Assembly (NCBI GenBank): GCA_032164245.1
Contig: JAVMKO010000003.1
Coordinates: 46,316,890-46,380,889 of the forward strand
Length of the DNA stretch: 64,000 bases
From: Sternotherus odoratus
Taxonomy: Eukaryota; Chordata; Testudines; Kinosternidae
Direction of reading: 5' to 3'
Shown here: positions 6,846 through 63,310 of the stretch, piece after piece
Layout of the letters: each line of letters opens with the position of its first letter
Numbering within the stretch: the stretch's first letter is position 1
The notes under the pieces: model-generated
Told to the model about the DNA's origin: nothing
The model's input: only the letters and a program-made list of their open reading frames with translations
Database searches by the model: none
Program-made: the position numbers and the translations under genes

Positions 6846-7309
6846 CAATAAGGAATTAATTTCTTAAATTATATCATTGTTTCATTCCTTCATAGCATTT
6901 AGAGAGAAATCAATAATGCTCACTGGTGACATGGAGAGTATGGTGCAAGTTCATTAAGTGCTAGACTTTAAGCACTCAAGCAGTCTCACTTAGGTAAAGG
7001 TTTTGCTGAATCGGGGCCTATGTCTGCATATCCCTTTTTTCAGGCCCTATTTCAGTTATTAAGGTTACAATAAGAATAGGGACTGTTGTGAATTTGTATT
7101 AGAATTTCTAGACTGTGGGAAGCTCATCCTTGTGCGTTTAGAAGGTTGAAGTACTGGAAACACTGCAATTCACTTTTCTCTGTTGGGTAACCAAAGAACA
7201 AATATGTAAATACTCAAAGAATATATCATCCATCTTGCGTTAGTTCAGTTCCAGTTACCAGAATCTGCCTCCAGGCTGTGGCTGTATTGAACATTCAAAA
7301 ATGTTAATC

Positions 7310-7613: not shown

Positions 7614-7840
7614 GCTCACTATTTGATAGCGGTCGGGCCTGGCTAGTAGTTGGATGGGAGACCTCCTGGGAATACCAGGTGCTGTAGGCTTAACACCTGG
7701 CAGTAGGTATAAAATGCCTCCAATGACAGATGGAACGACGCATCGGTTGGAGTATACCCCAGTCGTATCACTGGTTGTGTCCAGTCCTGCCATAGTGCGG
7801 GAATAACGCTAGGAAAAACAAACGCTCACTATTTGATAGC
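7614..7840 (+). mobile_element. retroposed 5S rRNA-derived sequence with 17-bp target duplication
   Basis: A perfect 17-bp direct repeat, gctcactatttgatagc, flanks the insert at 7614-7630 and 7824-7840. The insert begins with 61 bases matching the 3' half of vertebrate 5S rRNA (from 'ggtcgggcctgg' through 'tggatgggagacc' to 'gtgctgtaggctt') and continues with about 130 bases I do not recognise. It ends in a short A-rich tail. The long exact duplication shows LINE-mediated retroposition, probably recent. Because the 5' half of the 5S is missing, the box A and intermediate promoter elements are gone and the copy should not be transcribed by RNA polymerase III on its own. Confidence 0.85.
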
Positions 7841-26150: not shown

Positions 26151-26910
26151 AGCTAGACAAAAGATGAAAACAAAAAACTCTACAAGAAGTTTACTGCCCC
26201 AGACAGCATCTTCTCCAAGTGCTGCCTAAAGACGAAGCCTATGTTGTGGCCAAATTAACATAAAGGGTGAAATCTTGCTTACACATTAAGGAGAATGGGA
26301 ACTTTGCTATTGACTTCAGTGAGGTCAGGTTTTCACCCAGTAGCTCTATAGATGCCACTTCAACAGACTCCCAAATGTGGAATAATATAGTAGATGCTTG
26401 AAAGATACAGTCATTATCTCTCATATGACTTGCTTGTCTTCCCGCAACTCACACTATAGTTGACTGATATTAAAGAGTGATTCTCTCCTGTGGCCAATAT
26501 CCACCCACTACAGTATGGAGCATAAATGAGCTGGTTAGAGCTCCCTGATCCCTTGCTCAGCTCTCTTCTCATCCTGGCATATGCCGGCTGGGAATAGGTG
26601 GAGTACAGCTGGTAGACACTCAGGCAGTTTCCACCTGCGTGGCCAACCAGGGCAGTGAATCTGGCCCCAAAGTCTTTATTTACCCACAGTTGTCACACAA
26701 TAGTATTTGAGATTATACAGCATTTCTTTATATTCAAAATATGAAATAACCGTGCTGTGGCAGATACCACTGTGACACCACTTTTGGCAAAAGTTGATTA
26801 TTTAGTTGCGACTGTCATAAGTTGGATACGGGTCATTTCCATTATCTGTATTTTCATCTACACTTCAGCACTTGTTTGTAGCTGAAAAGTAAGCTTACTA
26901 TTTATAAGAA

Positions 26911-27032
26911 AACGAGGAATGCTGTAGCACCTTAGAGACTAACTAGTATTAGTTAGTCCATATCCGTAAAGAAAACAAGGAATACTGTAGCACCTTAGAG
27001 ACTAACTAGTAACACGGCTGCTATACTTAAGC
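26911..27032. mobile_element. rearranged Penelope-like 3' tail
   Basis: Flanked by a 13-bp duplication ctatttataagaa (26898-26910 and 27033-27045). Inside are two direct copies of the antisense tail core 'caccttagagactaactagt', closed by a plus-strand tail end 'aacacggctgctata'. Penelope-like elements use a reverse transcriptase with a GIY-YIG endonuclease and are known for tandem or inverted partial copies. This one is a 122-bp composite without coding. Confidence 0.75.
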
Positions 27033-27420
27033 CTATTTATAAGAAGTACACACACACATTATGCTGTTGCACGTATGGTGTAGCTGGTTCCTTTACAAAT
27101 CACATACTTCCATACAAAGGGATCCATTGGATTTATCTTAAGCAGATCTAACCCCCTGAAATATGGTTTGAGGCACAATACAAAACAATTTCTTGTAGAT
27201 ATAAACGGGTCCAATAATTTAACCACACCACAGCTTTTGTATTATCTACTTGTCTGAAATTAGATGACTATTATGTATGCTCTTCATTATAAAACTTTAG
27301 ACAGATGTTATATTTGTTACCCTTTAAATATAATTGTCATTTCTGTGAATGAAATGTAGCTATCACAACTATAAATTGATCTTTCAAACATGTCCACTGC
27401 TCCACAGTTCTACAAGTAGC

Positions 27421-29842: not shown

Positions 29843-30301
29843 CCGTATTTTTCGCCCTATAAGACGCACTTTTTCTTCCCCAAAACGGGGGGGAAAAAGT
29901 TGGTGCGTCTTATAGGGCGAATGTCTTATAGGGCAAAAAAAAAAAAAAAAAAAAAAAAAAAAGCACCTCGCTCTCCCGTCCCCGCCGCGCGGACGGGCTG
30001 CCGAGGTTCCCCCCTCCCCGCCGCGGGTGGGCTGCCGGGAGCGTCCCGGTTCCCCCCTCCCCGCCGCGGGCGGGCTGCCGGGAGCGTCCCGGTTCCCCCC
30101 TCCCCGCCGCGGGCGGGCTGCCGGGAACGCTCCCGGCAGCCCGCCCGCGGCGGGGAGGGGGGAACCTCGGCAGCCCGCCCGCGCGGCGGGGACGGGAGAG
30201 CGAGGCGCTTTTTTTTTTTTTTTTTTTTTTGTCCGGATTTTTTATTAAAAAACGAGGGGGCGTCTTATAGGCTGGAGCGTCCTATAAGACGAAAAATACG
30301 G
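29843..30301. mobile_element. TA-flanked fold-back DNA element with GC-rich palindrome
   Basis: Ends CCGTATTTTTCG and CGAAAAATACGG are perfect inverted repeats with TA on both sides, and further inverted repeats of the 'cctataagacg' type follow inside. The interior is a long palindrome: an A run (29935-29962) and T run (30209-30230) form outer arms, and GC-rich arms meet at about 30128. The left arm contains three 43-bp tandem units starting at 30005, 30048 and 30091. Superfamily not certain; TA flanks favour Tc1/mariner. Confidence 0.8.
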
Positions 30302-31324
30302 TACATCATCTTACACTCTGACAGAGAAATGAATGATACTCTTGTCTTCATCTATTGTGCTTCATCTTTTTTCTGGTGACCACACAGTGTTAACTGAACC
30401 TTATCACATCCCTAGGGAGGAAGGGAGGTTATCATATTCAATTTACAAATTGGTAAATTGAGACAGAAAATGTTTAAATGATTCAGCAAAGTTCATGACA
30501 CAAGGGACTTGAAGAGTAACATAATGATAATGCTAACCTGTGCACATGCTTTATTATTTTTTTTAACTGAAGTAAACTATGAAAAGGTAAATGTTTGAAG
30601 TTTAATTTAACCTACTTTGTTCCAGGATTTGCAGTGACATAGCATATTATCAGTGATGTTCAGAGAATTTCCATGGAAACTAAAATTTACTGTGTAGTAA
30701 AATTTGAAATGGAAACCCTGATGCTTTTTCCTCAGAAGTTTTGGAAAAGGTGATGTCGATGGTATGTTCTGAAGCATCAGTGTAGTGCAATCTTCAAATG
30801 GTCATACAGGCTCACAAAAGTCTGTTTAGAGACAGATTAAATCACTTGTCATGTCTGTAGGAACCCAAATTGTCCCTGATGTAAATCACATGACGTCACT
30901 AAAGGTATACCTGAGATTAAATTGTTCTAAACTATTTCTCCTGACAAACGAGTGCCTGTTGCTTCCTGGCAACTGTTTCAAGGTAGCATAAGTACTGCAC
31001 AATAGAGAGACTTTCTCTCTTTCTATAAAATCAAACTACCTGAGTTATTTCAAGATAATGGAATGCTGGCTAGGGAATTTTAACACAAGATCTGGTGAAA
31101 GTTTAGTTGTTACCTTGTTGAACTCTCCCCCAAGTGGAGAAGAAGAAGAAGATCATATTTACAGTTCATATAAGTGACTCTGTACTACTTGCCACTATAA
31201 ATAAACCTTAAATGTTACTGAACATCACAGAAAAGGATTGAGAAAAACTTTCTAGTTTCCAGAGAGGAACAGTGTAATAGCCTAACAAGTCAGTTTTCTC
31301 ACTCGTCACCTTTCTCTCTCTCAG
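30302..31324. other. unrecognised interval upstream of the small-ORF candidate
   Basis: No repeat recognised. It contains a TGACGTCA half-like 'catgacgtcac' at 30889-30899 and a GAA run at 31139-31152. It appears more unique than its surroundings. Confidence 0.35.
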
Positions 31325-32117: not shown

Positions 32118-33193
32118 GGGGTATGTCTTCACTATAGGTCTAGGTCGATTTCCCTTAATTCGATTTTCTAAACTCGAGTTTAGAAAATTGAATCAGTGTG
32201 TCCCCACCAGGACAGCAGGTCGACAGTGGTCGACACTGTCTGTCCTTGAACTTTTGCAGGGGGTCGACATAGCCCGCATTGCACTGTGGGTAGGTAGCCC
32301 ACAGTGCAATGCGTGCTGGACCCCCCCCCTGCCCAAGCAGCCCCACGGACCCCCCCGCCCGAACAGCCCCCCCCTCGCCGTACCCACCCGCCCGAGGGGG
32401 GGTGGGGGAGCCAGCGCGCGGCTGCTTGGGCTATCGGCTCAGCTGCCTGGTGAAATTGACCAGACAGCTGAGCGGATCCCTCAAGCAGCCCCGCGCGGGC
32501 TTCCCCCCCCCTCATCAGCCCCGCGGACCCCCCCCCGCCCGAACAGCCCCCCCAACAGCCCCCCCGCCCAAACAGCCCCCCCGCTGGACCCCCCCCGCCC
32601 GAGGGGGGGGGGGAGCCGGCGCGGGGCTATCGGCTCAGCTGCCTGGTGAAATTGACCAGACAGCTGAGCCGATCCTTCAAGCAGCCCCGCGCGGGCTTCC
32701 CCCCCCCCTCAGCAGCCCCGCGGACCCCCCCCGCCCGAACAGCCCCCCCAACAGCCCCCCCGCCCAAACAGCCCCCCCGCTGGACACCCCCCCCGCCCGA
32801 GGGGGGGGGGAGCCGGCGCGGGGCTATCGGCTCAGCTGCCTGGTGAAATTGACCAGACAGCTGAGCCGATCCCTCAAGCAGCCCCGCGCGGGCTTCCCCC
32901 CCCCTCAGCAGCCCCGCGGACCCCCCCCGCCCGAACAGCCCCCCCCCCGAACAACCCCCCCCTCGCGGGGCTGCTCGGAGGTCGGAGGCTTAACTTCTGA
33001 TGCCTCTTCACTAGCCCACAGTCGAGCTTGTAATGTCGAATTTAGCCTTACTTCTCTCGTCAGGCAGGAGTTCCGAAATCGATCTTGAGGGCCCTTTAAA
33101 TCGACTTTAAGGGCATGTATGTGAAGACAGGTACACCTTTAATTCGACCTAACGTCGTTAAGGTCGAATTAAAGTGGTAGTGAAGACATGCCC
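32118..33193. mobile_element. Harbinger-type non-autonomous element, about 1.08 kb
   Basis: Terminal repeats GGGTATGTCTTCACTA (left) and GGGCATGTCTTCACTA (read inward from the right) are flanked by TAG on both sides. These match the terminus of the transposase-bearing relic at 1468, so it was probably mobilised by that kind of enzyme. Inside are a 26-bp perfect palindrome (32163-32188), a 16-bp-stem hairpin (32275-32313) and a GC-rich three-unit tandem array. Confidence 0.75.
32431..32960 (+). repeat. GC-rich tandem array, unit about 197 bp
   Basis: The phrase 'ctatcggctcagctgcctgg' recurs at 32431, 32627 and 32824. Each unit carries a hairpin with arms GGCTCAGCTGCCTGGT and ACCAGACAGCTGAGC, plus C- and G-runs. 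The runs keep proline-rich frames open by composition only. Confidence 0.92.
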
Positions 33194-34126: not shown

Positions 34127-34140
34127 CCAGAAATAAGATT

Positions 34141-34271
34141 ATTTCAGCATAAACTTTTGTGAAATAAACTTTAAAAAGCTTATGCTGAAATAAACTAGTT
34201 AGTCTCTAAGGTGCTACAAGTATTCCTCACTTTCTTTACGGATACAGACTAACACGGCTGCTATTCTTGAA
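34141..34271 (+). mobile_element. Penelope-like 3' tail with inverted 5' part
   Basis: Flanked by a 14-bp duplication ccagaaataagatt (34127-34140 and 34272-34285). The right part is a plus-strand tail ('ttagtctctaaggtgctaca' to 'cagactaacacggctgctat'). The left part 'atttcagcataaacttttgtg' is the same sequence as 'gcttatgctgaaat' in reverse, so the insert folds back on itself. Confidence 0.8.
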
Positions 34272-34426
34272 CCAGAAATAAGATTGTCTGTGCAGTCTCT
34301 TGCTTAAAGCAGTTAAATGCTGCCCCGAGAATAGGATTCTATCCCTATGGGATGGTGATGAAATCATTAAAACCAAGCTCTTCAGAGATGGTTACGAATT
34401 GGGTGTTCCTTCCTTTCTGAAAGTTA

Positions 34427-36086: not shown

Positions 36087-36205
36087 AGCCTACAGCACCT
36101 GGTATTCCCAGGAGGTCTCCCATCCAAGTACTAGCCAGGCCCAGCCCTACTTAGCTTCTGAGATCAGACAGGATTGGGCATGTTCAGGGTGGTTTAGCCA
36201 TATCC
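36087..36205 (-). pseudogene. near-complete 5S rRNA-derived sequence
   Basis: The minus strand matches vertebrate 5S rRNA over about 119 bases, from 'ggctaaaccaccctgaac' through 'agctaagtagggc' (box A region) and 'tggatgggagacc' (box C region) to 'gtgctgtaggctta'. Substitutions are scattered, so this is a diverged copy or the head of a 5S-derived SINE, not a working rRNA gene. The sequence beyond its 3' end differs from that at 7691. Confidence 0.85.
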
Positions 36206-37215
36206 AGTTTGAATAGTGTGCAGTAAATAAGGCCTGGAGCTACACCTTGAACAACGAGGAGAAAAAGAAATATTGAACAGCTGATCTTTAAGTGAGCACC
36301 ATCCCATCCTGTGCACTGGATCTTATGGAAAAAAATTATATGTGATCACATGACTGAAGACTATCCTAATGCATAGCACAAAGGGAGCACATTTCAGTTG
36401 CCTGTGCATATTTCCTAACTTTTGAATGCTTGCTTTTGCAGCCTTACTAATATTCTCTTAGCATAGTTTGTGTGTACTATCTGTATATCTATCACCTGTA
36501 TGGTGGTATTCATTCATACCTCTGCGTTGGCCAGCAGATCTAGCAGACTGTACAAGGAGAGTTGATGGGTCCCAGAAGGGTCTTAGGCATAGCCTTGTGC
36601 ACCAAATCACTCTGGCTTGCAATGTGTATTCATCAGGCAAAATGCCTCCCAATGCTCCTGGATTTTTACTTCTCCCAGCATTGACTTGTGACTGATGTAT
36701 TTTTATTTAATACATGTGTTCAATCAATGCAGCTGAAAAGCAAAGGAACTGTTTCTTGTAATTTCATTGGAAAGTATGAAGATTGGCAGCATCAGAATTT
36801 TCTTTGAACCTGTGATTGATTAAACTCTTTCTCCAGTGAGTTGCATTTCATATATAAACAATTACAGGAAACTTGCTGAAATGAACTGTTCTATGAAATG
36901 GACTGATTGCATTCTCCCTGCAGTTAGTAGGAGGAAATGTTTTTTTTTTTTACTTTATATTGATTCAAATTGATTTTATAATCAGACAAAAACAGAAAAT
37001 AATGACATCTAAATTTTGAAGCCTATGCCATGAAATATATAGTATTGGAATAAGGATCTAAATAGATAAGGAATGTCTTATAAATACAGCATTAAGTTTA
37101 GTAACTAAATCATCATTAATATCAATGAACTCTTTAAAACCACTCATTCCCATTTATAACACTGGATTTTCTTTTCTTATTTGCCTTTTATTTGTCTTTT
37201 GAATTTTTCAAGTAT
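36206..37215. other. unrecognised interval
   Basis: AT-rich, no feature recognised. Confidence 0.4.
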
Positions 37216-40030: not shown

Positions 40031-40044
40031 TCTGTTTTTACTGT

Positions 40045-40327
40045 CAAGAATCAGAGAGGTAGCTGTGTTAGTCTGGAATAGCAGAGGTAACAAAGAGTCC
40101 TGTGGCACCTTAAAGACTAACTAAAGTATTGAAGCATAAGCTTTCATGGGCTAATACCCACTTCGTCGGATGCATCCTTAAAGACTAACTAAAGTACTGA
40201 AGCATAAGCTTTCATGGGCTAATACCCACTTCGTCGGATGCATCCAACGAAGTGGTTATTAGCCCACGAAAGCTTATGCTTCAATACTTTAGTTAGTCTT
40301 TAAGGTGCCACAGCACTCTTTGTTACC
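40045..40327. mobile_element. palindromic Penelope-like insertion
   Basis: A perfect 14-bp duplication, tctgtttttactgt, flanks it (40031-40044 and 40328-40341). The left half is an antisense tail starting at its true 3' end ('gaatcagagaggtagctgtg'); within it a 68-bp block is tandemly doubled (starts 40108 and 40176, one mismatch). At about 40245 the strand switches and the same sequence returns in plus orientation to 'tgttacc'. The RNA or single strand would fold into a hairpin of roughly 80 bp. Each 68-bp block carries a hammerhead-like core on the minus strand. Confidence 0.85.
40125..40243 (-). ncRNA. two decayed hammerhead-ribozyme-like cores
   Basis: On the minus strand each 68-bp block reads CCGACGA, a stem of GTGGG/CCCA(T), GAAA, then GC-TTAT-GC-TT, the order of a hammerhead with a three-pair helix III and a UH cleavage site. 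Departures are C for U at core position 4, an extra A before helix II, and a weakened closing pair. Hammerheads of this short-helix-III kind are known from Penelope-like elements. Probably inactive. Confidence 0.4.
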
Positions 40328-40341
40328 TCTGTTTTTACTGT

Positions 40342-51232: not shown

Positions 51233-51675
51233 TACAAGGTGAGATGAACGGTCTATCTAGCCCAGTATCTTGTCTTCCAACAGTAGCCAGTGCCATATGC
51301 TCAGAGGGAAAGAACAGAACAGGGTAATTTATTGAGTGAGCCATTCCCTGTCATGTGGTCCCAGCTTCTAACACTCAGAGGTTTAAAGACACCCAAGGTT
51401 GCTTTCTTGATTAGTAGCCACTGATGTACCTATCTTTCCTGAAGTGACAAAGAGTCCTGTGGCACCTTAAAGACTAACTAAAGTATCTTTCCAGAGTGTA
51501 TCTAATTCTTTTTTGAAACCAGTTCAATTTTTGGCCTTTACAGCATTCTCTGACAAAAAGTTCCTCAGGTTGAAGGGATTTGTGAATAAGTACTTAGTTA
51601 TGTTAGTTTTAAACTTGCTGCTTACTAATTTCATCAGATGACCCTTGGTTCATGTCTTATGTGAAGGGATAAATA
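51233..51675 (-). mobile_element. CR1 LINE 3' fragment with small insertion
   Basis: Minus-strand tail ('ctatctagcccagtatcttg', 'cattccctgtcatgtggtcc') interrupted at 51440-51483 by a 44-bp Penelope-type piece. Confidence 0.82.
51440..51483 (-). mobile_element. 44-bp Penelope-like tail fragment
   Basis: Just the arm 'acaaagagtcctgtggcacc' plus 'ttaaagactaactaaag', flanked by a 9-bp duplication tatctttcc (51431-51439 and 51484-51492). It lies inside a CR1 and so arrived later. Confidence 0.8.
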
Positions 51676-55103: not shown

Positions 55104-55118
55104 TCTTCACAAAGGTAG

Positions 55119-55306
55119 AGGAAACAAAGAGTCCTGTGGCACCTTAATGACTAACTAAACTATTGAAGCATAAGCTTTCATGGGCTAATACCCACTTCGT
55201 ATTAGCCCACTAAAGCTTATGCTTCAATACTTTAGTTAGTCTTTAAGGTGCCACAGGACTCTTTGTTACCTCTGCTATTCCAGACTAACATGGCTACCTC
55301 TCTGAT
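55119..55306. mobile_element. palindromic Penelope-like insertion
   Basis: Flanked by a perfect 15-bp duplication, tcttcacaaaggtag (55104-55118 and 55307-55321). An antisense arm (about 55122-55200) is followed at once by its inverted copy (55201-55276) and then the plus-strand 3' end 'cagactaacatggctacctc'. It has the same architecture as 40045-40327 in opposite orientation, and the two share the same outer 5' boundary ('aggtaacaaagag' type). The hammerhead-like core is cut at the centre and lacks its first bases. Confidence 0.88.
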
Positions 55307-55401
55307 TCTTCACAAAGGTAGTACATTTTGATCAATCAGTAGACAAAGAAAATCTCCAAAGCATAAACCAGATGCATCCATAGTACTTTGAGGAACTAGA
55401 A

Positions 55402-63103: not shown

Positions 63104-63104
63104 C

Positions 63105-63310
63105 TTGTTTCAGAGTGGTAGCCATCTTAGTCTATATCAGCAAAAAGAACAAGGAGTACTTGTGGCACCTTAGAGACTAACAAATTTATTTGGGCATAAG
63201 CTTTCGTGGGCTAAAATCCACTTCATCAGATGCATGGCGGTGAAAATACAGCAGGAAGTTATATATATACAGAGAACATGAAAAGAGGAGGGTTGCCATA
63301 CCAACTCTAA
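63105..63310 (-). mobile_element. Penelope-like 3' tail, least rearranged copy
   Basis: Starts at the tail end in antisense ('tttcagagtggtagccatc'), then 'tggcaccttagagactaac', 'gcataagctttcgtgggc' and further upstream sequence with 'gttatatatatacagagaa'. It is a simple 5'-truncated insertion without fold-back. The left part of the element is poorly bounded. Confidence 0.75.
63190..63235 (-). ncRNA. decayed hammerhead-ribozyme-like motif
   Basis: The minus strand reads CTGATGA (complement of 63223-63229), then a helix II with GTGG/CCAC arms (63206-63222), GAAA (complement of 63202-63205) and GCTTATGC. The core box is canonical here, but an extra A precedes helix II and the U before the cleavage position is C, so self-cleavage is unlikely. 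Confidence 0.42.

Follow-up and report, generated by a model that had tools for sequence, protein, structure and literature searches.

Penelope-like elements (PLEs) form the third class of eukaryotic retroelements, and little is known about their integration beyond the initiation of the first strand (PMC11167929). Inverted pseudo-LTRs (pLTRs) and short 3' extensions are listed among the peculiarities of PLEs (PMC8969392). PAc of Anolis carolinensis, from the endonuclease-bearing (EN+) Penelope/Poseidon clade, possesses a reverse transcriptase (RT), a GIY-YIG endonuclease and a pLTR with a minimal hammerhead. In purified form, the anole PLE cleaves both strands of AT-rich targets and extends both, and its RT starts at two adjacent internal sites that bound an optional tail of 30-40 nt (PMC11167929). 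The Penelope elements of the rotifer Adineta vaga show head-to-head inverted pLTRs with a tail on one of them, a palindrome at the junction and short target-site duplications (TSDs). Most of the examples described enclose an ORF, and self-priming was put forward as their origin (PMC3846280). In L1 twin or dual priming, both ends of a staggered break prime cDNA and give rise to an inverted insertion with TSDs; twin-primed L1 copies consist of two inverted fragments with an internal deletion (PMC2837659). The metazoan retrozymes are small non-coding elements with type I hammerheads that are possibly moved by PLEs (PMC7229834).

The locus described here occupies positions 40031-40341 of a stretch of 64,000 nucleotides (the window). 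The family to which it belongs resembles PAc in the RT and GIY-YIG domains, the pLTR with a minimal hammerhead, the two start sites that bound an optional tail, the AT-rich targets and, as inferred here, the cutting and extension of both target strands. It differs from PAc in that an inverted pLTR pair devoid of an ORF is a common product. It also shares the head-to-head pLTRs, the single tail, the junction palindrome and the short TSDs with the Adineta vaga elements as reported; in contrast to the self-priming proposed for those elements, the genome-wide count, the marker concordance and the promoter-like position found here favour the annealing of two cDNAs end to end. The start zones are fixed and the arms overlap by about 90 nt, unlike the twin-primed L1 fragments. 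Given this overlap, simple twin priming on a single RNA, with neither cDNA displaced, was rejected. The locus possesses neither a canonical hammerhead nor an array of 170-400 nt repeats, in which it differs from the retrozymes (PMC7229834).

Exact 14-bp TSDs TCTGTTTTTACTGT at 40031-40044 and 40328-40341 enclose a head-to-head insert of 283 bp. A repeat of at least 14 bp was obtained by chance in 0.1% of 1000 random zone pairs from the same window. Going outward, the left arm lies on the minus strand and consists of two 68-bp units followed by a longer 3' part, and the right arm lies on the plus strand and consists of a single unit followed by a shorter 3' part. The tail arm (40045-40175, minus) runs from pLTR position 131 to 1 with the 3' tail included, as aligned to the other copies in the window. 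It contains the outer 68-bp unit (40108-40175, minus), to which the inner, second unit (40176-40243, minus; pLTR 1-68) is identical at 67 of the 68 positions. The tailless arm (40238-40331, plus) covers pLTR 1-94, is identical to the tail arm at 90 of 94 positions and overlaps the right TSD with its final 4 nt. The complementarity between both inverted arms is 94%. They meet in a self-palindromic sequence of 10 nt, GGATGCATCC (40236-40245), inside which lie the 6 nt common to both arms, ATGCAT (40238-40243). The 14-bp duplication, the doubled 68-bp block, the strand switch to an inverted copy and hence the palindromic insert itself, which the original prediction had read from the letters of the window, are all confirmed. 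The centre that had been placed at 40245 is also present there, with position 40245 being the right edge of the 10-nt palindrome. A stem is predicted between 40114-40121 (5' strand GTTAGTCT, minus) and 40067-40074 (3' strand AGACTAAC, minus), where it would enclose the start site of the tailless arm. Six of its eight pairs are unchanged among five copies in the window, and no covariation was found among those copies.

The 68-bp doubling is shared with other loci. Tandem arms were identified in L001, L002, L003, L004 and L007 of 40 scored loci, for which the query itself holds the tandem, and the tandem junctions differ among L002, L003, L004 and L007. Because tandem units also occur in these four loci, the doubling is read as a recurring by-product, most simply of a template jump.

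The extent of the family was determined by pattern searches of the 1.76 Gb genome assembly with up to 3 mismatches, where the backwards-pattern control gave 0 matches each time. The 28-mer of the arm start was found at 37,057 places, a 36-mer that extends upstream of the arm start at 6,961 places and the 28-mer of the palindrome centre at 713 places. The centre junction, whose uniqueness in the host genome had been named as a check, is far from unique, and the impression gained from the window that centres differ between loci was overturned by the same search. Long copies extend upstream into a broken gene in which the ORFs are broken. Four pieces from three long copies (L076, L077, and L078) were tested for Pfam domains. 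L076 has a GIY-YIG match (E=7.5e-6) above the Pfam cut-off and an RVT_1 match (E=6.3e-6) below the cut-off, with YIDD visible in the translation. L078 has an RVT_1 match (E=0.003) that is also below the cut-off, and the piece of L077 has no Pfam match. The RT and GIY-YIG lie upstream of the 3' pLTR, tandem and/or inverted partial pLTR copies are present, the end zones lie about 37 nt apart as expected for an optional 3' tail of 30-40 nt, and short TSDs were found in 14 of the 15 centre-selected loci and, at 9-15 bp, in 5 of the 6 window loci. Judged by its sequence, this layout, with RT and GIY-YIG next to each other and to a pLTR, is that of an EN+ PLE, and 40031-40341 is a short insertion of such an element. 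The Penelope-type identity that had been suggested for the insert is thus borne out by long copies that carry both domains upstream of the same pLTR. One pattern sought in IMG/VR and one sequence string sought in papers gave no match. A self-comparison of L079 indicates that long copies too may form large head-to-head pairs, of about 0.5 kb against about 0.26 kb.

Several relatives are located within the window. One of them (55104-55321) is a further palindrome from the same subfamily, flanked by a 15-bp TSD and independent of the insert at 40 kb; its left arm is tailless, its right arm is tailed and its centre is asymmetric. Two two-ended insertions belong to an older subfamily, one with a tandem unit and a 13-bp TSD (26898-27045) and one with a 14-bp TSD (34127-34285). 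A single 5'-truncated tailless copy (51431-51492, minus) has a 9-bp TSD, a length of repeat expected by chance in 2.8% of zone pairs. An older relative (63104-63235, minus) continues upstream of ATGCAT and has an intact minimal hammerhead core; no TSD of at least 7 bp was found for it. These relatives again show two types of outer end, one tailless and one with a tail that makes it about 37 nt longer.

Outer ends were mapped in 18 two-ended loci that have an exact TSD of at least 10 bp, with both window palindromes included and microhomology counted. Tailless ends lie at pLTR 88-94 in 17 of the 18 loci and tail ends lie at pLTR 125-131 in 16 of them. The outliers are L025, whose second arm ends at 52, and L014 and L021, whose tail ends are misplaced by extra junction bases. 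The tailless end and the adjacent target have a mean of 1.5 letters in common, compared with 0.66 for swapped targets and 0.29 for inner offsets. Both outer ends lie in narrow zones, and these match the RT start sites known from the anole PLE. Both 3' ends of the break likely primed cDNA because the 3' end of each arm adjoins a copy of the TSD.

The tails were then counted in two samples, and the 40 score-selected loci were left out of this count because their query held part of the tail and the tandem. Sample 1 consists of 15 loci picked by the centre alone (L041-L055), among which L055 is older and diverged; its tail state was taken from an alignment that reaches position 115. Sample 2 is consecutive and takes in 40 of the 41 places at the head of the list of exact arm starts, all on contig C1; the omitted place (C1:1171001-1171050) is L009/L041, a two-arm locus with one tail. 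Sample 2 is made up of 15 two-arm loci, 11 one-arm copies that start at most 4 nt from ATGCAT, 3 that start 10-17 nt upstream and 11 long copies. L056, which resembles a deleted duplicate of L057, was scored as one-arm, and L080 was dropped from the tail count since it is the same locus as L042. Both samples represent young copies, since the seeds match exactly, and come from contig C1 only. A single tail was found in 15 of 15 two-arm loci of sample 1 and 13 of 15 of sample 2, which makes 27 of 29 by a hand tally with the shared locus removed. No locus has two tails and two have none among the 29, in samples that were not selected for tails. The use of each start zone once in 27 of 29 two-arm insertions sets this family apart from PAc, for which no strand difference in the RT start site was seen in vitro (PMC11167929), a finding that counts against a one-of-each rule. 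One score-selected locus (L020) has two tails and counts against the rule; no TSD was found at this locus. Among one-arm copies, long copies included, a tail is present in 8 of 25.

These counts bear on dual priming, where the two ends of the break are extended on separate PLE RNAs and their cDNAs are then joined. Such a process explains both outer ends, the TSD and the overlapping arms, and it has been proposed for some L1 insertions (PMC2837659). With independent starts, however, it predicts about 43% of loci with one tail, from which the observed 27 of 29 deviates with P about 2e-8, and we consider it unlikely. Second arms that were cut short or internally deleted still keep the tailless end in L010, L011, L036, L039, L057, L067, and L082. 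Some second arms stop elsewhere, at positions 52, 47, 65, 63, and 50, and for these the single-mRNA model favoured below must invoke alternative priming. As a separate observation, the truncated arms of L057, L066, L067, L075, L082, and L094 have their inner ends at pLTR 16-20, in stem II of the hammerhead-type motif, which may mark a reverse-transcriptase pause.

Both arms of a locus carry the same markers. The variants were compared in 25 loci, made up of all 15 from sample 1 and 10 of the 15 with two arms from sample 2; L063, L072, L080, L087, and L096 were left out owing to short arms, the lack of a tail or duplication. Position 48 has the same letter in both arms in all 24 typed loci (14 T and 10 A; one of the 25 is untyped), and the arms agree on the deletion at position 80 in 20 of 21 loci. 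Derived non-CpG variants common to both arms within a locus number 45 against 10.8 when permuted (5000 permutations, none as high), and without the diverged L055 they number 35 against 10.5, again with none as high. No non-CpG variant present in at least 3 copies is exclusive to one kind of arm among the 25 loci. Among 24 score-selected loci, some changes were confined to tailless arms (CpG positions 9, 11, and 31, and the junction position 94); we attribute these to CpG decay, to bases at the junction and to a selection that favoured tail arms with a good match. The idea that each arm of the window locus had its own template, considered on account of position 30, was dropped since this position is a CpG and concordance holds in the wider sample.

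The concordance would likewise result from dual priming on two RNAs of one source locus. It also fits self-priming, where a cDNA snaps back or an antisense transcript primes itself and the second arm is copied from the first. The latter has been proposed for the rotifer Penelope elements, in which palindromes recur at the inverted junction (PMC3846280). Copying from the first arm should nevertheless proceed through the tail into the flank, whereas most second arms end in the other start zone. It is also at odds with the window locus, whose arms differ in unit number (two in the first, one in the second), and with the asymmetric centres of several loci. Self-priming is therefore regarded as very unlikely.

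The junction coincides with the starts of one-arm copies. A TATA-like box TATTTATA starts 32 bp upstream of the first A of ATGCAT in the majority of 11 aligned long copies, and 32 bp is a usual spacing between a TATA box and the start of transcription. One-arm copies start at most 4 nt from ATGCAT in 11 of 25 cases, a count in which inner starts are invisible as the seed begins at ATGCAT. The palindrome centre and the starts of one-arm copies fall on the same ATGCAT, where the 5' end of the PLE mRNA is predicted, with a putative promoter upstream. If the mRNA starts there, run-off cDNAs would all end in ATGCAT-3' and could pair over six letters. A few two-arm loci (L062, L072, and L094) have an arm that extends past ATGCAT, by 9-28 nt in the upstream direction. 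Asymmetric centres with one truncated arm, as seen at other loci, are expected if one cDNA stopped early, the alternative being loss at the palindrome after insertion.

The original prediction had also suggested that small self-complementary RNAs are mobile by themselves. The palindrome would then be the mobile unit, with a hairpin RNA of an antisense tailless arm and a sense tail arm reverse-transcribed whole from the tail. The occurrence of the same centre at 713 places and the single tail per copy agree with such a unit, and second arms with truncated outer ends (L025, L044, L050, and L075) would be ordinary 5' truncations. A palindromic master should nevertheless have produced variants exclusive to one arm, of which none of the non-CpG kind with at least 3 copies was seen. 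The TATA-like box lies upstream of the arm start and arms begin at ATGCAT without the box, one-arm copies share ATGCAT as their 5' end, and the lone truncated copy at 51431-51492 keeps the tailless end. A mobile palindrome is consequently the least probable explanation weighed here, and the autonomous mobility of small self-complementary RNAs is unsupported by the one-arm copies that start at the centre nucleotide, the box upstream and the variants. Of the earlier reading, the anatomy and the Penelope type hold and the independently mobile RNA does not. The palindrome looks like a product of insertion and not a mobile template, because its arms end in the start zones, one-arm copies share its start, the box lies upstream and arm-exclusive variants are lacking.

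Both 3' ends of a staggered break probably prime cDNA on one PLE mRNA, and the run-off ends then join. In the proposed sequence of events, the PLE endonuclease would first produce a staggered break with 14-nt 3' overhangs. The 3' ends would then prime near the 5' end of one mRNA, at site 1 (about position 92) and site 2 (about position 131), and both cDNAs would run off at the mRNA 5' end, ATGCAT. The cDNA ends (...GGATGCAT), self-complementary over 6 nt, would anneal and be filled in to give an exact palindrome. The 68-bp doubling would arise by a template jump or by re-reading within one arm. One RNA may be read twice, from site 1 and then from site 2, which requires that one cDNA be displaced; such a reading with displacement would give one tail and concordant markers. 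The fuller proposal of a concerted two-ended PLE insertion on a single mRNA, with a fixed site for each 3' end and ATGCAT as a built-in cohesive end, is offered tentatively, as our doubts about it slightly outweigh our confidence. If true, it would explain why pLTRs occur inverted, why only one tail is present and why palindromes form at the PLE junctions of distant animals, without a separate initiation of the second strand. The inverted terminal repeats of PLEs with one tail are known, and the one-tail count, the marker concordance and the cohesive-end model are new. Among the matches listed in a literature search (titles and abstract openings; few subscription journals), none combined these mechanism ideas for PLEs. 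The recurring scars provide testable rules, namely one tail, one source for both arms and a junction at the predicted start of transcription, and the origin of inverted pLTRs becomes a direct biochemical question.

The hammerhead that had been predicted for the doubled block is present in altered form. Descriptor scans identified a minimal hammerhead-type motif in the outer unit (40134-40173, minus) and the inner unit (40202-40241, minus), both with C in place of U4 in the core. The motif of the right arm (40240-40279, plus; from sequence and alignment) has the core CCAACGA, in which U4 and G5 are changed. On the sense strand, the motif consists of the stem GCAU/AUGC, the core, one extra A, stem II, GAAA and GCU-U, and it has no helix III. 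The strict minimal core was found by the descriptor scan once in the window (63194-63233, minus) and 0 times in 60 shuffles. A descriptor relaxed to accept C at core position 4 also matches the two units at 40 kb, and the 60 shuffles then give one match in total. A change at this position of the hammerhead core lowers activity. The core CCGACGA is present in 119 of 149 fetched arms and the strict CTGACGA in 9 of 149, the latter being explicable by CpG decay.

The conserved core CUGANGA ... GAAA with stems I and II is not found in the insert, since U4 is C in both units, and tandem repeats with a canonical type I or III hammerhead, as in retrozymes, are also lacking. The Rfam hammerhead models, which had been named as a check, gave no match up to E=10 for the window copies at 40 and 63 kb and no match up to E=1 for 7 genome loci, so that every copy submitted scored below threshold. 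What stands of the hammerhead-bearing block is a minimal hammerhead-derived motif without helix III; its core is changed and has no Rfam match. Hammerhead mutants leave insertion unchanged in vitro (PMC11167929). The motif here is an inherited minimal relic of the PLE type that is apparently unneeded for the palindromic outcome. Rfam matches to the microRNAs mir-569, mir-577, and mir-2763 were rejected, as they lie below the cut-offs and are expected from a long hairpin.

Other repeats were also observed in the window. An element resembling a fold-back DNA transposon lies at 29843-30302 with the ends ACCGTATTTTTCG/CGAAAAATACGGT, and it holds an inner GC-rich inverted repeat with arms at 29941-30074 and 30097-30230 (88%). 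An inverted pair of about 1.1 kb (18822-19908/27420-28481), complementary in blocks at 79-93%, contains C-rich arrays of about 31 bp and a 43/44-bp array, and it is possibly one mobile unit that was inserted twice. A 5S rRNA-like sequence at 36087-36205 (minus; 82.7 bits), to part of which 7635-7695 is 98% complementary over 61 nt, may be a 5S-derived SINE. A very C-rich tandem repeat of 196 bp with 2.6 copies and 96% matches occupies 32428-32945.
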